Assembly: GCF_022549785.1 (NCBI RefSeq)
Contig: NZ_JAKZGO010000001.1
Span: 518,101-582,100, forward strand
Reading direction: 5' to 3'
DNA: 64,000 nucleotides
Source: Belliella alkalica
GTDB taxonomy: Bacteria; Bacteroidota; Bacteroidia; Cytophagales; Cyclobacteriaceae
Part shown: positions 32,999 to 45,297 of the stretch, piece after piece
Layout: every line of letters begins with the position of its first letter
Numbering within the stretch: the stretch's first letter is position 1
The notes under the pieces: generated by a model
The model's input: only the letters and a program-made list of their open reading frames with translations
Told to the model about the DNA's origin: nothing
The model's database searches: none
Made by a program: the position numbers and the translations under genes

Positions 32999-35900
32999 TT
33001 AATCTATATGTTTTTTTGATAACAAAATCCTTCCTGACTCTCTTTTGACTTTACCATTACTAATTGCCATATCAATTACATACCTTAAAAGAACTTCAAT
33101 TTGTTTTCCAACTTTTGCAAAACCAAAAGTTCTTGACAAATAGCGTAGCAACTCCTCTTCTTCTATACTTAAGTTATGTATTACTACTTCTTCCAGCGCT
33201 ACCAAAATCTCTTCCGGCGCGATATCTTCCATGTTGCGTTTTCCAGATTCTGAAATACGATAGTGAGTCAACCCTTCCTTCTGCCTTGAATTCCAATAAA
33301 AAGGCTGATGATGCATGACTTTATTGATACTTAATTCATTGATAATACTTTCTAAGTGGTTGTCTAACTTTGAACTTGATCTTCCAATATTCCATACCTG
33401 CAATATCTTTTTGAATAAATATGCTTTACTGATCGGAGATTCAACCTCTACAGTTTCCAATACTTGTTTCTTGATTTTGTCCCTGTAGGTATCATCATAG
33501 ATTGTTTCAATATTAGCGAATGACATAGGTGTAATCTTGTGAGATACATAAGGAGTTCGTAATAAATTTTCTTCAATAATGATTTCCTCTGAATAATCCT
33601 CTTCATCAATAGACAAAGACCTATCTATATTTATTTCATTGGATTCTTTACTTTGAAAATCATTCTCTGTTGGAATATTTCCCTTGTATTTTTGTAAAAT
33701 TTCGACTTTTTCAATAATTCCATCAACCAGTTTTGATGAATTTTCATACCAGTCCATGGTCCATAGTCTGTGAATATTCCATCCTAATGATTTTAGCATG
33801 GAAGGCATCACCATTTCACGGTCATTGGTGGTTTGAGCATTCAAATAATGATGTCCATCCAAAACTATTCCCAATATATATTCTTGAGGTTTCTCAGGAT
33901 GAACAATCGCTATATCAACTTTAAAATTTGAAGTACCTACATTACATTTTACGCTAAGACCTTTAGCTATCAATTTTTTGCTTATGGCTTTTGACAAATG
34001 TTTTTTGGATTGATTGCTCAAGATATCTTCAGGCCTAATCATCAAATGACCCTTTTCTGCAAAATTCAAAAAAGCTTTAAGCCCTGCAACTCCCTCTGAT
34101 GAAGTTCTTGATAAATCAATTTGGTCAGATTTTAGTGTCGCAAAAACAAGCATCTCATTACGAGCCCTAGTGATAGCGACATTTAATCTTCTCCATCCAC
34201 CATTTCTATTTAGGGGACCAAAATTCATACTCAATTTACCGTCTTTATCAGGCGCATATCCTATAGAAAACAAGATTATATCCCTTTCGTCTCCTTGGAC
34301 ATTTTCAAGATTTTTGACAAACAAAGGTTCTGAACTTTCATTCGCATATTCTTCTAATTTGATATCTGACATAAATAATTCCTGTAGTCTATCTTCTACC
34401 AAATTTTGCTGGGTTTGGCTAAATGTGACTACACCAATACTTAATTTTCTCCTTAAGGGGTCATTATAATGTGATCGCAAATAGTCAATTATTGCATCGG
34501 CTTCATTTACATTTGTCCGTGTCTTTCCTTTATCATAAAAACCCTTTACATGCTGAAACTGGACTTTTCGGTTTAAATCATCGGCAGAAGGGAATGTGAG
34601 CAACTTATTTTCATAAAAATTAACATTACTAAATGCAATCAAACTTTCATGTTTACTACGATAGTGCCTCAAAAGGTACTTTGAAGGAACAGATAAAGAC
34701 AAACAATCATCCAATATACTTTCCAAATCTTCCACATCCATGTTCTCTTCATCTAATTTTATCGTATTGAAAAATGAAGTTGGAGGCATCTGCTTAGGAT
34801 CTCCTACAATAATCGCCTGCTTAGCGCGCGCCAATGCACTAATCGCCTCGCAAGTAGGCAATTGGGATGCTTCATCAAATATTACTAAGTCAAAATGATT
34901 CAAGTCAACATCAAAATATTGAGCAACTGAAATTGGACTCATAAGCATACATGGAGCTAGTCTCGGCAATAGGTTGGGAACTTGATCAAAAAGTTTACGA
35001 ATACTCATTCCTCTTCCACGGTTTTTGATAGCTCGCTGTAGTATCCCTATTTCAGAACTTTGCATGGCCTCTATTGAAGTGCTTGGAAGGTTCGAGGCCA
35101 ACTTGGATCTTAGTTCTGATATTGTTAAATTCCTGAAATCAATAGCAATCTTCTTATATTGCTCAATCTTACTTTCAAATAAATTCACATTGAATAAGCT
35201 CAAGGTTTCACTTTTTGAAATTACCTGCTCAGCAATAGATCGGTGTACCGTATAATGGAAATATGCATGCAAGCTATCATGATCACAGGATTTATTATAA
35301 TAGGCATCAATCAACCATTGCAAATGCATTGATTTTCCCTGATTAGATACTTGAACAAAATTCATCCATGTCTTTAATTCAGGCAAATGTTTCTGTATTT
35401 CAGCTAACTGACCCTTAGCTTGATCGATCCAGTCTAATTCATCTTCAAAGGTTATCCCAACCAAAGCCTCAAAATCATCTTCTGCTTTTTCAAACTTTTC
35501 AGATTGGTGCAAAAAATCTTTACACAACTTTGAATTTGGAAAAAACACTTCTCCTGTATATTGATATTCCAAATTATTGAAAACATGCATCCATTGGCTT
35601 AGCGCATGTGCTCCCCAATGTCGCATATGCTGTGCTAAGTTTCTAAATGAATGTGCCCTTCCCTTTATTTGGTCTATATCAGTCTGATCCTCTTTGAATA
35701 GATTTTTTAATGATTTGGTCACTTCCAAAAATCTATTTTGCTGTAATATCCTTTGTACTTCTTTGAGCTGACGGTTTTCAGAAAACAGCTTCTCAATTTC
35801 CAAATCACTTTTTATTACTGTATTTTTATGTATTGCAACTTGTTTCTTTATCCTATTTTTTTGCAACCATTGTCCAAGCAACCAACGCTGTTTTGCTTGT

Positions 35901-38845
35901 TTCCATTCTAACTCTATGCTCGTCAAGTCTAAGTCTAAAACACTTCTATTGTATTCACTAAGGATACTCAATTGTGCTTTTTGAAAATGCAAGTAATGAT
36001 TAATCCATTCTTCAAAGCAATCAAAATTATCCTTGTTGGCTAAAAAACGGCATAATTCCAATGGCATATCTGGCAAACTTCCAACAACTTCTACTACTTG
36101 TCTAAATTGCAAGAAATCCTTTTTTGAATTCACAGAAAATGGGAACTTAATAGCATCCACCACTGCGTCCTGTTTCTTATTTAGATCTGACATTATCTCT
36201 ATCAAAAACTGACTTTGAGATAAAATAGACTCATTAATTGACGGGGAATATTGAGTTATTCTTAGATCTTCCAGTGGATTCTCACTGGGATGAACAACTA
36301 TCTTTGCCAAAGACTGGAACTGGGGCAACCAATCTGTCCATTCTTGCCATTGCTTAAAATTTAATTTTTCTAGAATCAGCTGTGGAATCAAATTCCTTCC
36401 AAAACTATATTCCTCAAAATCCTGTAATGCAGTAATACTTTCATACAAACTCCAGCCAATAGGTTGAATTTCGTGAAGTACATCGACATATTTGCTTATA
36501 GCCTGCTTGGCAGTATCAAGTCTTTCTGATTCTTGAATATAATCAGCAGATTTAGCTAATCTGTTTGATTCCAAAGATTTGGATAACTGCTCCAAAACGT
36601 CTGATTTCCTTGATCTATTGGAATGCAACTCCAAAGAAAATGCCCCCAAACCTATCTGCTCTAGCCTCTTGTGAACTACATCAAGTGCTGCCTTTTTTGC
36701 CGCTACAAACAACACTCTTTTTCCATTAAACAAAGCATCTGCAATAATATTGGTAATGGTCTGAGATTTGCCTGTACCAGGAGGTCCGTGCAGTATAAAA
36801 CTATGCCCTCTGCTTGCTGTCAATACTGCTTCCATTTGGGATACATCTGCAGGAATCGGTAATGCAATGGACTTGGACTCGATGCCGTCGATATTTACTC
36901 CTTCAATACCTTCCTTATCACTACTAAAAACTAACTTTCCCTCTACTAAACTCCTGACTATTTCACTTTTCAGAATATCATCTGAATGCGAAACTATGTC
37001 CTTCCATAGAATAAGTTTGTTGAATGAAAAATTCCCCAATACCAATTGCTCCTCTACGTCCCAGCCTTTCATCTGCATCACAGATCTTCTCAATAACCCC
37101 ATGACTTTGGCTACATCAACCCCTTTATCATCATATGGCAACTGCTCCAACGCCCCTAAATTCAATTCATATTCTTGGCGAAGAAATTCTACCAAGGTAA
37201 TGTTGATCATAGTCTCTTCCTCTCGACTTTTGAGTGTAAACTTACTATTGATAGATCTTCGCTGTAGCTCTACTGGCACTAATAAAATAGGAGAAAAACG
37301 TGGTTGATCAGGCGTTTTTCGGTCATACCACTTTAGCAACCCTACAGCTAAATACAAAGTACTTGAACCATTTTCTTCAATAGATTGCTTTGCGTTTTTA
37401 TGAATATAGGTCAGAATGTTATCAAGGTCTTGCTGATGATAATGCGTCAACAAGCGATTAGATTTCAGTTCTTCACTAGCCAATTGAAAAAGAGGAGAAG
37501 AACTATGCAATGGTGGAGAAAAATAATTGTATTTGCGCTGCACTTCCGCTTGCTGATTTGGCATAATGGAAAAGGTCTTACCTTCTGACAATGTATCTTC
37601 GAAATGACTGATATCTACATCTACCAATTGCAGCATATTCCGTGTCATCCGCAAGTTGAGCAGATTATTTCGAAGAGATAAATCCAGAAGATTTCTCTCC
37701 CATATTTTTTGTTTGGTTTTACCAGTATTGTCTTCTAGCAAGTCATCCTTGTAGATAGTCCCAATATCAAATTTTTTATCAGACTTGCTGTAAGCATCTT
37801 TTATCAATTCCCCTTGGTCTAATATCACCTCACCCGATTCATTGATCAAAGGCAAAGGACGAATGAAGGCAGTTCTCGCTCTCTTAATATCTACTGACAA
37901 TTGAAAATCTTCTTTTTGAATCAATTGTGATTCTCCTGAAGCCAATGCGTCACTAAACTTCATAGCTGTACCCAGACAGACACTTGTAGCTTCAAAAGCA
38001 ACTATTTCACGAATACCCTTCGAAAGACGTTTGGTGATGGCCGATTTATCATCATTAATGATCTCAGGAAATTTATCATCATGAAGCCAGCATCCTACGA
38101 AGGCATGCCCCTCTACTAAAATCAAAATCGGATTAAGATTTACTGCTTCCAAACAAGCCGCAAAGAGTAAAGTCAAATCAATACAATTTCCAAATTTTTC
38201 TTTCTGAATAGTACTCAGAAGCCTCAATCTTTGTCCCCTCTCTTCATAGCTTGGGGGCAAAGCACTATAGGCAATTTCTTCACTTTGTATAGCTGAATAT
38301 ATAGCAGAGATTATCTGCAATACGCGCTCAACATCTTGTGACTGATATCCTTCAAATGCAGTTATCAAACCCTGCTTTTCCAATATTGCAATTGCTTTTC
38401 TTTTGATCTGATAGACAAATGGATGGTTGGGTGTCACATATGATGCAATCAACTCAGGGAGTACTTGGAATCCACCAAAAAATTCAATTGGGTGAATTTC
38501 TACAGCAAAAGTGTCAACTTGAGAGAGGATGTCATTTTCCAAAACCTCTATTGTGATTACCGATTTTTCTGTTTCTGACAACTTGGAAAGGAAATCTCTG
38601 TTGATACTCAATGTTTCCAATGGAATACCTAAGTCACTTTCAGCAGGAATGTAAGGAACAGAAAATTCAAAAGGTTTGATAAATTCAAGATCTGCTGATA
38701 TCCTAATTACTATGCTGCCCGAGTCTATATCAGAAGTATTTTCTATTATCAAATTTCTGATTAGTTTTTTATTATTCAAATACATGGAAATGTTCAGAAA
38801 AGGAAGCACTTCTTTGTGTATTACAAAATTATTTTGCCCATTCAT
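32999..38845 (-). CDS. DUF4011-helicase-Vsr-like nuclease-DUF3320 protein, candidate anti-phage defence
   Basis: A 1948-residue multidomain protein. The N-terminal part holds a transglutaminase-like core (GNCIDLTLL near 219, then GHAFVGCWL). DUF4011 follows near 375-500. The split SF1 helicase has Walker A GPPGTGKS (about 688-695), Walker B FDLVIFDEASQLP (about 1322), QGDERDIILFS and LNVAITRARNEM (about 1515-1565). A Vsr/MTES_1575-like nuclease (about 1630-1715) reads VDIAIVHPEKP, GIVLDGHHY and GWNIHRLWTMDW. DUF3320-like and C-terminal helical segments end the protein. This order matches the single-protein defence system called Hhe (recalled family knowledge). It probably acts by unwinding and cutting foreign DNA. 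It lies downstream of the orphan Cas6 on the same strand with a 242-bp gap. Confidence 0.82.
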   Translation of the reverse strand: MNGQNNFVIHKEVLPFLNISMYLNNKKLIRNLIIENTSDIDSGSIVIRISADLEFIKPFEFSVPYIPAESDLGIPLETLSINRDFLSKLSETEKSVITIEVLENDILSQVDTFAVEIHPIEFFGGFQVLPELIASYVTPNHPFVYQIKRKAIAILEKQGLITAFEGYQSQDVERVLQIISAIYSAIQSEEIAYSALPPSYEERGQRLRLLSTIQKEKFGNCIDLTLLFAACLEAVNLNPILILVEGHAFVGCWLHDDKFPEIINDDKSAITKRLSKGIREIVAFEATSVCLGTAMKFSDALASGESQLIQKEDFQLSVDIKRARTAFIRPLPLINESGEVILDQGELIKDAYSKSDKKFDIGTIYKDDLLEDNTGKTKQKIWERNLLDLSLRNNLLNLRMTRNMLQLVDVDISHFEDTLSEGKTFSIMPNQQAEVQRKYNYFSPPLHSSSPLFQLASEELKSNRLLTHYHQQDLDNILTYIHKNAKQSIEENGSSTLYLAVGLLKWYDRKTPDQPRFSPILLVPVELQRRSINSKFTLKSREEETMINITLVEFLRQEYELNLGALEQLPYDDKGVDVAKVMGLLRRSVMQMKGWDVEEQLVLGNFSFNKLILWKDIVSHSDDILKSEIVRSLVEGKLVFSSDKEGIEGVNIDGIESKSIALPIPADVSQMEAVLTASRGHSFILHGPPGTGKSQTITNIIADALFNGKRVLFVAAKKAALDVVHKRLEQIGLGAFSLELHSNRSRKSDVLEQLSKSLESNRLAKSADYIQESERLDTAKQAISKYVDVLHEIQPIGWSLYESITALQDFEEYSFGRNLIPQLILEKLNFKQWQEWTDWLPQFQSLAKIVVHPSENPLEDLRITQYSPSINESILSQSQFLIEIMSDLNKKQDAVVDAIKFPFSVNSKKDFLQFRQVVEVVGSLPDMPLELCRFLANKDNFDCFEEWINHYLHFQKAQLSILSEYNRSVLDLDLTSIELEWKQAKQRWLLGQWLQKNRIKKQVAIHKNTVIKSDLEIEKLFSENRQLKEVQRILQQNRFLEVTKSLKNLFKEDQTDIDQIKGRAHSFRNLAQHMRHWGAHALSQWMHVFNNLEYQYTGEVFFPNSKLCKDFLHQSEKFEKAEDDFEALVGITFEDELDWIDQAKGQLAEIQKHLPELKTWMNFVQVSNQGKSMHLQWLIDAYYNKSCDHDSLHAYFHYTVHRSIAEQVISKSETLSLFNVNLFESKIEQYKKIAIDFRNLTISELRSKLASNLPSTSIEAMQSSEIGILQRAIKNRGRGMSIRKLFDQVPNLLPRLAPCMLMSPISVAQYFDVDLNHFDLVIFDEASQLPTCEAISALARAKQAIIVGDPKQMPPTSFFNTIKLDEENMDVEDLESILDDCLSLSVPSKYLLRHYRSKHESLIAFSNVNFYENKLLTFPSADDLNRKVQFQHVKGFYDKGKTRTNVNEADAIIDYLRSHYNDPLRRKLSIGVVTFSQTQQNLVEDRLQELFMSDIKLEEYANESSEPLFVKNLENVQGDERDIILFSIGYAPDKDGKLSMNFGPLNRNGGWRRLNVAITRARNEMLVFATLKSDQIDLSRTSSEGVAGLKAFLNFAEKGHLMIRPEDILSNQSKKHLSKAISKKLIAKGLSVKCNVGTSNFKVDIAIVHPEKPQEYILGIVLDGHHYLNAQTTNDREMVMPSMLKSLGWNIHRLWTMDWYENSSKLVDGIIEKVEILQKYKGNIPTENDFQSKESNEINIDRSLSIDEEDYSEEIIIEENLLRTPYVSHKITPMSFANIETIYDDTYRDKIKKQVLETVEVESPISKAYLFKKILQVWNIGRSSSKLDNHLESIINELSINKVMHHQPFYWNSRQKEGLTHYRISESGKRNMEDIAPEEILVALEEVVIHNLSIEEEELLRYLSRTFGFAKVGKQIEVLLRYVIDMAISNGKVKRESGRILLSKKHID

Positions 38846-39087: not shown

Positions 39088-39876
39088 TTAACTGAGGTTT
39101 TTTACGGAAACACAACCAAACCCTAGAGAATTTTGAGTACCAAACCCACCATAATATCCTAATTCTTGTAATAATGGTGAAGCTATAAGTTTAAAATCAT
39201 ACTGATAAGCTGTAAGTTTGATAGGATCCGTTTCAAAATCATTGAATACAACTCCACGCTTTTGAATTTCAGAAATTGGTTCAAAAACAATTTCAGGACA
39301 ATAATCTTCTAATTTTTGAAGCTTTTTGAGCTCAGGGAAAAAGCTCGAAAATTTTTTCAATAATTGATTTTTAAATAAACCCGCATATTTGATATCATTA
39401 GGGGAAACATAATCCATTTCACCTTTATCGGTTTTATTTACCAAAAATACTGGTGTGACTGCTTTATAAATCATTTCATCTTTAAAATCTACTTTGGGTA
39501 TTTCCTCTAAATCATGAATACTATATTCCACAATCTCATTAGAGCTTACAAAGTTGATTCTTTGTCCCTTTAGTAAATCTACAATGTAATCACATGTACT
39601 GGAATCAACTAAAATCCTCATATCTAAGCTAGCATTTTCACCTATATGCGTAAAAAGCTCACTTTCGATATCCTCGAGAAAAAAATCAAAATCCAAATTT
39701 GAAAAAGTAAAAGGATAGAAGCGCTTCGAACAAGCTTGATCCCCATAAATACTCTGCATAGAAGATTTATCAGCTTGTTCAAGTATATTTTCCAAGGCGG
39801 CAGACAACTGATACTGATAACTTCGAGAAATTTTGTTATTCGAACTACCTCTTTTTAGTTTAATTAAAAATTGCAT
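39088..39876 (-). CDS. cas6: Orphan Cas6-family protein, probable non-canonical active site
   Basis: A 262-residue protein. The C-terminal YYGGFGTQNSLGFGCV (241-256) is the glycine-rich loop of Cas6, which recognises or cleaves CRISPR repeat RNA. The N-terminus also follows the family: MQFLIKLKR, YQYQLSAALENIL, then KRFYPFTFSNL (51-61). Where active Cas6 proteins often carry histidine in an LH..GY segment before this, the sequence is SIYGDQACS with Tyr44. The only histidines are H77 and H121, so metal-free cleavage by the usual mechanism is doubtful. No other cas gene or repeat array is in the window. It might serve an array elsewhere, or bind RNA for the helicase protein. Confidence 0.72.
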   Translation of the reverse strand: MQFLIKLKRGSSNNKISRSYQYQLSAALENILEQADKSSMQSIYGDQACSKRFYPFTFSNLDFDFFLEDIESELFTHIGENASLDMRILVDSSTCDYIVDLLKGQRINFVSSNEIVEYSIHDLEEIPKVDFKDEMIYKAVTPVFLVNKTDKGEMDYVSPNDIKYAGLFKNQLLKKFSSFFPELKKLQKLEDYCPEIVFEPISEIQKRGVVFNDFETDPIKLTAYQYDFKLIASPLLQELGYYGGFGTQNSLGFGCVSVKNLS

Positions 39877-40108
39877 AATTCACTTTTTAAATGAGAATGC
39901 AACTTAGGTACAAATATGCTGATATAAAATACCAACTACAGGGTATTTTTTACATTAGAAAGAAGATTTTTAATATAATAATCCACTTTTGTAAGTATAG
40001 ATTAGATTATGGACATTCTGAATTATGACAGTAATAATTTTGAAGCTCACTACCACCATTTTATGACAATTACCATATTGACAATGCTCAAACCTGAATT
40101 TTGTTTAA

Positions 40109-44182: not shown

Positions 44183-44332
44183 AAATGCGATTCAAAATCC
44201 ATAATTTACCACTTCCACCAATCCACTCAATAACCTAATCAACTCAATAACTATTCTCTAGAGTTTAGGAGGGTTTGAGGATTAAAATGGGATTCAAAAT
44301 CCATAATTTACCACTTCCACCAATCCACTCAA
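44183..44332. repeat. 48-bp direct repeat, two copies with 102-bp period
   Basis: The segments 44183-44230 and 44285-44332 are identical except for one base (C44188 versus G44290). The second copy covers the stop codon of the minus-strand dehydrogenase (44329-44331). The first is therefore probably a duplicated 3' end of that gene. The 54 bp between them contain further short CTCAATAAC-like echoes. Confidence 0.9.
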
Positions 44333-45297
44333 CTAACCAAAATTATCTTTCCATTTCTACCAGCCTTTTCATATTCTACCAAAGCTTCCTGGAATTGATC
44401 AAGTGGATAGGTTGCTTGAACATCTACTTTTACTTTTTCAGAAAGTAGATAAGTAAATATGGTTTTGAATGCTTTTTCCCTAGCTGTTCTATCCAAACTT
44501 TCTATCCAAGTCGTTAACCAAAACCCTTCTACTTTAAGATTTTTGAATATTAACAAACCTGAGTTTAGTGGGATATTTTCGAGGCTCAATAGCCCAAAAA
44601 CCATCATGGTACCATTTGCCCTCAAACTAGCAAGTGCCCTTGCTCCAAGGACTCCCCCAACGGCATCAAATACGACATGAATTCCTCCATCTATTTTTTC
44701 AGCGATTACTTTTTGAAGTTTTTCTTTTTCAGTATTGATCACAAGCTTTGCTCCCAAACCTTCCAAAAGGCTTTTTTGCTTATCATTTCTGATGGTACAA
44801 GCCACATTGATACCTTTCTGACTCGCCATCTGAATTGCGAGTTTGCCAAATGCCGATGCTCCAGCAGTGATCAACAACCAATCTCCAGACCCCAAACCAC
44901 TTTTTTCAATCATTCCATAAGCTGTCAGCGGGTTGACAAAGGCTTGACAGGCTATCTCATCAGACATACCTTCGGGCACTGGTATCAGTAAATGGGCCGG
45001 TACAACTACATACTCTTTCCATGTTCCAATAGCTGTAAAAATCACTTTGGTACCTTTTTTAAAAGTACTTTTTTCATCTTCTTCTTCGACTACACCAGTT
45101 GCTTCAAATCCTGCTGAGCTTGGAAAATTAGGTGTAATTCCATACATTCCCCTAATGAACATAATATCAGAAGGATTGATATTTCTTGCTTTTACCTTGA
45201 TCAAGACTTCATTTGGTTTTGACTTTGGCATTGGTGCTTCTTCCAGCTTCAAAACATCAGCAGGTTGTCCTGTTTTGTGAAATACTACTTGTTTCAT
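44329..45297 (-). CDS. Quinone-oxidoreductase-like zinc-free medium-chain dehydrogenase
   Basis: A 322-residue MDR-family enzyme. Residues 1-120 form the GroES-like domain (KARNINPSDIMFIRG, SAGFEATGVV) and about 125-290 the NADPH-binding domain (LITAGASAFGKLAIQMA). The catalytic zinc ligands of alcohol dehydrogenases are absent, as in quinone oxidoreductase, crotonyl-CoA reductase or MECR-type enoyl reductases. The FPSSAGFEATG segment and the long C-terminal domain leave its substrate open. It is a single gene, convergent with the S9 peptidase. Confidence 0.85.
   Translation of the reverse strand: MKQVVFHKTGQPADVLKLEEAPMPKSKPNEVLIKVKARNINPSDIMFIRGMYGITPNFPSSAGFEATGVVEEEDEKSTFKKGTKVIFTAIGTWKEYVVVPAHLLIPVPEGMSDEIACQAFVNPLTAYGMIEKSGLGSGDWLLITAGASAFGKLAIQMASQKGINVACTIRNDKQKSLLEGLGAKLVINTEKEKLQKVIAEKIDGGIHVVFDAVGGVLGARALASLRANGTMMVFGLLSLENIPLNSGLLIFKNLKVEGFWLTTWIESLDRTAREKAFKTIFTYLLSEKVKVDVQATYPLDQFQEALVEYEKAGRNGKIILVS

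Follow-up and report, generated by a model that had tools for sequence, protein, structure and literature searches.

The gene under study is an intact open reading frame on the minus strand, at positions 39,088-39,876 of a 64,000-nucleotide stretch of Belliella alkalica DNA (hereafter, the window). Its stop codon occupies 39,088-39,090 and its product is 262 residues long. From family models, the predicted fold and occurrence in all eight Belliella genomes examined, it is described here as a putative cas6-like pseudoenzyme gene. A palindrome, AAAATACC-N8-GGTATTT (39,926-39,949), lies 50 bp upstream of the start codon and is probably a promoter operator. Between palindrome and gene, the box TAAGTTGC (39,899-39,906, minus strand) resembles the Bacteroidetes -7 promoter element; similar boxes precede the other Belliella copies, and the gene is presumably transcribed. 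The next gene on the same strand, at 32,999-38,845 and separated by a gap of approximately 240 bp, encodes a 1948-residue DUF4011 helicase with an MTES_1575 nuclease domain. It matches the PADLOC models PDC-S37 (E 0) and Hhe (E 9.1e-146) and is a candidate defence gene. Elsewhere in the window, two copies of a 48-nt direct repeat (44,183-44,230 and 44,285-44,332; 98% identical, 102 bp apart) lie just past and at the end of an open reading frame at 44,329-45,297 (minus strand).

The Pfam model Cas_Cas6_C matches the window protein with an E-value of 1.4e-17 (65.1 bits against a cut-off of 23 bits), and the PADLOC Cas6b model does so at 1.8e-35, whereas its score with the NCBIfam equivalog for Cas6 endoribonucleases, 53.8 bits, falls below the 58.65 cut-off. 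With 36 input sequences, AF2 gives a model with a mean pLDDT of 85.1 (71.1 when eight sequences were used). In a Foldseek comparison of this model with the PDB, Cas6 structures fill the ten best matches, including 5yi6 (E 1.7e-15), 3qjj (5.4e-14), 3ufc (9.2e-14; a Cas6-related structure from P. furiosus) and PfCas6, 3i4h (6.1e-12). The protein has the Cas6 C-terminal domain with its glycine-rich loop. The loop region (residues 236-256; 39,109-39,171, minus strand) is the best-kept part of the protein, with 16 of 21 positions invariant across the eight Belliella copies, which share a total of 75 invariant columns. Family models, the predicted fold and the tree described below all make the window protein a true Cas6 homolog. 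A reading made earlier from the sequence alone had called it Cas6 from its C-terminus, and that call is upheld by each of these lines; structure prediction, which the same reading had proposed, places the protein in the Cas6 fold and not in an unrelated one.

The sequence-only reading had also seen no cas gene or array in the 64 kb. Four array methods (a repeat search, a tandem-repeat search, Rfam and a script) find no CRISPR array in the window, and genome-wide searches for Cas1, Cas9, RAMP and Cas3_HD give no match inside it.

The catalytic residues were mapped by a profile alignment of 27 triad-bearing relatives to PfCas6, in which, by our own count, the numbering of the 3pkm chain is offset by 5. 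The PfCas6 triad comprises Tyr31, His46 and Lys52; Y31A and H46A mutants have no detectable activity, and K52A lowers activity 40-fold (PMC3652601, in part). The invariant Tyr29 and His44 of the relatives align on PfCas6 Tyr31 and His46, and a Lys or Arg two residues before an FTFS-like motif aligns on Lys52. Residues were counted over 36 of the 41 cas6-like loci, representing eight Belliella copies and 28 relatives; the five loci omitted are L066 (a C-terminal piece), L067 (which keeps LH), L068 (LQ for LH), and L069 and L070 (gapped where the histidine would be). At codon 29 (39,790-39,792, minus strand), where all 28 relatives have Tyr, the window protein has Glu, and the Belliella copies have Glu in seven cases and Asp in one. 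Codon 44 (39,745-39,747), His in 28 of 28 relatives, is Tyr in the window and Tyr, Tyr, Leu, Leu, Leu, Leu, Val and Ser across the genus. At codon 54 (39,715-39,717) the window's Tyr belongs to a Belliella series of Tyr, Phe, five Ile and Phe, against Lys or Arg in all 28 relatives. No triad residue is therefore retained in any of the eight Belliella copies, while all three are present in the 28 relatives examined. Cas6-like proteins farther out in the family also lack the triad. The sequence-only reading, which had noted Tyr in place of the usual histidine, was right on this point, since Tyr44 falls in the His46 column, and the other two positions are replaced as well. While the window protein belongs to the Cas6 family, it lacks the Tyr-His-Lys triad of a Cas6 endoribonuclease and should not be filed as one; by its sequence, it probably does not cleave RNA.

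The changes extend beyond the triad. Gly102 and the Gly112-Asp113 pair of the relatives are both gone in all eight Belliella copies. Lys214, invariant in the relatives, is lost in seven of the eight (the G108 copy retains it), and another conserved lysine is replaced by Glu in seven, with Lys206 retained in the window copy. The predicted pI of the Belliella copies is 4.76-5.81, against 6.40-9.64 for the relatives. In the two Belliella genomes that also encode a triad-bearing Cas6, the orphan is the more acidic of the two (G143, 5.81 against 7.02; G166, 4.99 against 6.77), so general acidity of the proteome is not the cause. The acidic shift and the loss of conserved lysines, in seven of eight copies at each of two positions, argue against the usual mode of repeat binding.

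A missing triad does not prove inactivity, because Sulfolobus Cas6 cleaves without the histidine or tyrosine. The Sulfolobus paralogs dispense with a general acid or base and act through positively charged residues (PMC3652601 and PMC3727216, each in part), and they provide the precedent for a nuclease with an alternative active site acting on another RNA. Candidate residues exist: Lys132, Lys169, Lys174, Lys229, Arg87 and His77 are invariant in the eight Belliella copies. His77, however, is also present in 19 of the 28 triad-bearing relatives and is not a new catalytic residue, and His121 occurs in one of eight Belliella copies (the window's own) and one of 28 relatives. SsoCas6 (Sso1437), like the window protein, has no catalytic histidine and does not conserve Tyr31; unlike it, SsoCas6 is active and keeps the equivalent of Lys52 together with a basic network (PMC3652601, in part), where all eight Belliella copies have Tyr, Phe or Ile on an acidic protein. 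Type III RAMPs, moreover, were not detected in six of the eight genomes, although partners of type I are possible. An alternative-site nuclease is therefore improbable, and the earlier idea of a stand-alone processor using another catalytic site finds little support, since the Belliella copies have gained no conserved histidine and have also lost the catalytic lysine.

Within the family Cyclobacteriaceae, 70 of 295 sampled genomes contain some match at E ≤ 0.001, and the gene is present in eight of eight Belliella genomes: B. alkalica (G000, the window genome), B. calami (G108), B. pelovolcani (G040), B. aquatica (G205), B. filtrata (G166), B. kenyensis (G143), B. buryatensis (G187) and an eighth genome (G218). 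Six of these have Cas1, five Cas9 (RuvC_III), five the repeat of the Cas9 array and two type III RAMPs, which gave no match in the window genome. The gene is thus not confined to genomes with Cas9: G166 retains it without Cas9, and G040 and G205 do so without detected Cas1, Cas9, Cas9-array repeat or type III RAMPs. No class 1 effector, nor an array belonging to one, lies within approximately 9 kb of the gene at the eight Belliella loci and, the Cas9 module excepted, homologs of genes in the cas clusters of other loci are likewise absent from that range. Searches for Cas3_HD (a match in G166, none in G143) and DevR (no match in G143, G166 or G224) were insensitive, missing genomes that contain cas6-led clusters, and are not counted as negatives for type I effectors. 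Carriage of the gene on mobile elements was considered and rejected: neither the 72,556 plasmid records nor the 50,697 phage records searched contain a match, and of 95 candidate stretches in viral_contigs not one was confirmed. In G205, which has no Cas1 match, a solo 83-residue Cas2-like protein is encoded at L154 1,968-2,216 (plus strand), with the palindrome before its gene.

In an IQ-TREE phylogeny of the same 36 sequences, the Belliella copies form one clade (support 100/100) on a stem of 1.12 changes per column, and their neighbor is the Cas6 of Rhodonellum (support 90/78). The open frames are full-length (259-262 residues) in all eight species; the TAA flagged in two match rows is simply the normal stop codon, which falls close to where the match ends. 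Sequence comparison shows the Belliella gene to be under purifying selection. The dN/dS ratio is 0.041 for G187-G040 and 0.065 for G218-G205, with dS near or past saturation in these two closest pairs and saturated or not computable in most others, and about 0.1 for the window copy and G108. Both closest pairs set a Cas9-bearing genome against one without detected Cas1 and Cas9. Their cas6-like proteins are 85% and 81% identical, compared with 85% and 80% for the F13 neighbor and 78% and 72% for F14. Private changes number 10 in CRISPR-less G040 and 5 in G187, 6 in CRISPR-less G205 and 10 in G218, and 10 in Cas9-less G166 and 21 in G143. There is no general acceleration where CRISPR is absent, although in the first of these pairs the CRISPR-less genome shows the larger number. 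A long stem followed by constraint is the pattern predicted by a change of function.

These data also bear on the possibility that the gene is a decaying, functionless relic of a lost type I system. The free variation of the histidine column (Tyr, Leu, Val, Ser) and the lack of cas-cluster homologs nearby are what a relic would leave. Full-length frames in every species, dN/dS ratios of the size reported, the constancy of the glycine-rich loop and a promoter palindrome retained in eight of eight genomes are not, and a relic is very improbable.

The palindrome lies 47-52 bp before the start codon in all eight Belliella genomes. Allowing up to two mismatches, it occurs within 600 bp upstream of 24 of the 41 cas6-like loci (22 with none or one), and 26 of the 37 sites in the 789 kb searched fall within such distance upstream of cas6-like loci. 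Since it also precedes cas6-led clusters of other genera, the orphan has retained a promoter feature of those clusters. It is not exclusive to them: each Belliella genome contains 27-54 strand-wise matches (about half as many places), compared with 0-2 for a reversed control, and several lie between convergent genes, which means that a promoter role does not hold for every copy. The further sites examined come from G000, G218 and, in part, G205, and the genes near sites were assigned by longest open reading frames, which may be wrong for short ones. DndC, HsdM, DruH-like and Abi-like genes also have the palindrome upstream (loci L031-L061 and loci of G000, G205 and G218). A defence regulon is unconvincing: PADLOC (E ≤ 0.001) matches 6 of 20 site-facing genes, scanned from 26, and 3 of 20 random genes drawn from 82 at the same loci. 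A WYL-type regulator binds inverted repeats before defence genes elsewhere (PMC9122601, in part). The idea that the palindrome acts as a protein-bound RNA hairpin was also set aside, since the arms do not vary in sequence and are placed ahead of the -7-like box, which suits a DNA operator better. RNA folds of five upstream stretches are mixed, with z-scores from -1.45 to -4.23.

The neighboring helicase suggests a two-gene defence system in which the cas6-like protein would act together with the DUF4011 helicase-nuclease. Their genes are same-strand neighbors in G000, G108 and G143, a helicase remnant lies beside the gene in G166, and in G000 the pair stays together though it lies away from the Cas9 locus. 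However, in G187, G040, G218 and G205 the cas6-like gene persists where a full-length helicase is missing, the best matches in these genomes being partial and 33-35% identical. Keeping the cas6-like gene does not depend on the helicase. Given this, and the width of the intergenic gap in the window, such a system is the least probable of the explanations considered.

CRISPR is present elsewhere in the window genome. The sequence-only reading had suggested a genome-wide search for arrays, and repeats are indeed found, at a Cas9 locus on the same contig, approximately 414 kb from the cas6-like gene. The locus (C1:135.6-143 kb; the orphan is at C1:557 kb) comprises Cas9, a Y1_Tnp-like gene, Cas1, Cas2 and 9-10 repeats. 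One of its flanks (F24, F30, F29) is as in other species and the other differs. The same reading had held that a complete CRISPR-Cas locus without its own Cas6 would make the protein an ordinary detached Cas6. A locus without Cas6 does exist, but it is of the Cas9 type with a candidate tracrRNA, and is expected to need none. Two side observations concern the module itself. Cas1 of L037 is 93-99% identical to that of L031, L032, L034 and L073 while neighboring genes are saturated at synonymous sites, and Cas9 of L037 is 52% identical to Cas9 of L073; the adaptation genes of the Belliella Cas9 loci look to have been exchanged recently, judging from these identities. A Y1-transposase-like gene lies between cas9 and cas1 in all five loci (L031, L032, L034, L037 and L073), the L031 copy matching its Pfam model under the cut-off (E 0.0034).

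In four of the five Cas9-bearing species (G108, G187, G218 and G143; four of the eight genomes), the Cas9 array ends beside the cas6-like gene, and repeat remnants reach to within approximately 150-165 bp of it in G218 and G143. The cas6-like gene may therefore have a role tied to CRISPR, and the protein could assist the Belliella type II system as a non-cleaving Cas6, binding pre-crRNA or the array transcript and influencing how crRNA matures or how stable it is. The usual neighbors on one side of the G000 Cas9 locus suggest that locus and orphan were probably once together, and the palindrome lies between Cas9 and its divergent neighbor in three of the five Cas9 genomes (G000, G108 and G218, not G187 or G143). 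An array remnant beside the window gene was looked for and rejected: alignment of three repeat variants found no array or anti-repeat remnant near it at the score used. Against an accessory role, the gene is similarly constrained in G040 and G205, where neither Cas1, Cas9 nor the repeat was detected, and it is also present in G166, which lacks Cas9. In G187 and G000 the sequence upstream of cas9 contains an anti-repeat, a tracrRNA candidate, so that ordinary tracrRNA-guided processing is expected. Finally, identity across the five species with Cas9 is 93-99% for Cas1 but 42-69% for the cas6-like protein, which indicates that the Cas9 module has a separate and more recent history. An accessory role is unlikely, though it deserves more weight than the other alternatives.

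The explanation we favor, and consider probable, is that the gene encodes a Cas6 pseudoenzyme, vertically inherited as a CRISPR-independent core gene, which most likely binds without cutting. The ancestor would have belonged to the Cas6 lineage that occurs in cas operons of Cyclobacteriaceae. Its catalytic site would have been lost on the stem of the sampled Belliella, after which the gene would have been retained by vertical inheritance, independently of CRISPR, with a promoter keeping the palindrome found before cas6-led operons of the family. A conserved inter-domain cleft and the glycine-rich loop may hold a ligand that is not cut, either an RNA or a protein partner bound on the now acidic surface. 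Because the acidic shift weakens the case for RNA, a protein partner is a serious alternative. The sequence-only reading had offered recruitment of an RNA-binding Cas6 to a new function; the new function gains support from the lost triad, the strong selection and the retention without detected CRISPR, and the RNA-binding half is the part that the acidic shift weakens. A function outside CRISPR thus seems likely. The fuller proposal, in which a Cas6 left CRISPR, shed both its basic charge and its catalytic site, and turned into a core gene of the genus whose product now serves as a regulatory or structural binder, is more tentative, and we regard it as possible but somewhat short of an even chance. 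All three residues are gone in all eight species, a clean loss that is followed by constraint, and a triad-bearing orphan is found in the nearest genus, so that a testable series runs from active orphan through dead orphan beside Cas9 to dead orphan without CRISPR. In the open-access literature consulted, no mention of a lone inactivated Cas6 as a core gene was found in the available parts of PMC3652601, PMC3727216, PMC12669027, PMC8730458 and PMC9122601.

Several of the closest comparisons are within the family. The Cas6 proteins of Cyclobacteriaceae cas clusters (L039-L065), including the second Cas6 of G143 and G166 (L060 and L061), are homologous to the window protein over its full length at 26-40% identity, and many share its promoter palindrome; unlike it, they keep the Tyr-His-Lys/Arg triad. 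Many are clustered with Cas1 (by Pfam, in G067, G143, G166, G220 and G224) and with arrays of 30-31-nt repeats. We presume these clusters to be of type I, given the PADLOC Cas6b match of the window protein, the Cas3_HD match in G166 and the usual make-up of such operons. The nearest outgroup, the Cas6 of Rhodonellum psychrophilum (G070, L038), is 44% identical to the window protein. It too is an orphan, with no array or cas-cluster homolog within approximately 9 kb and no Cas1 match in its genome, but it has all three triad residues and a pI of 6.96.

A second set of lone Cas6-like genes directly follows a GTPase gene that we take, from its sequence, to be ychF, at all 22 loci examined across Cyclobacteriaceae (L069 9,357-10,151, plus strand; L070 9,608-10,384, minus strand; and L168-L187). 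L069 and L070 are Cas6 by Pfam (E 2.4e-17 and 5e-19) and PADLOC and lack the histidine stretch, and the DNA fetched around them contains no array. The other 20 loci were chosen from weak family-search matches, mainly over the C-terminal two thirds; in all of them ychF is on the same strand, 58-316 bp upstream, and no CRISPR array lies in the 8-8.5 kb stretches fetched. The histidine column is gapped in 22 of 22, as the histidine is missing from the window protein, and Lys or Arg occupies the Tyr31 column, although at such distance column assignments are tentative. This lineage is separate and distant from the window protein (approximately 25% identical over the matched part) and differs from it in that column and in its fixed place behind ychF. 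Belliella is thus not alone in having lone Cas6-like proteins that lack the histidine. If the proposal for Belliella is correct, then, together with this family, recruitment of a lone Cas6 outside CRISPR would have happened more than once.

The closest precedent for function is PhCas6nc of Pyrococcus horikoshii (PH0350; 3qjj, 3qjl and 3qjp), described as an inactive homolog with a wrap-around mode of RNA binding (PMC3727216, in part), which shares the Cas6 fold with the window protein, as the Foldseek match to 3qjj indicates. The two are 15-16% identical, the window protein is bacterial and strongly acidic, and RNA binding is a feature of PhCas6nc. Unlike PhCas6nc, the window gene is present in every genome of its genus examined, also where Cas1, Cas9 and type III RAMPs go undetected. 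By analogy with PhCas6nc, binding without cleavage would be the most economical function for the Belliella protein.
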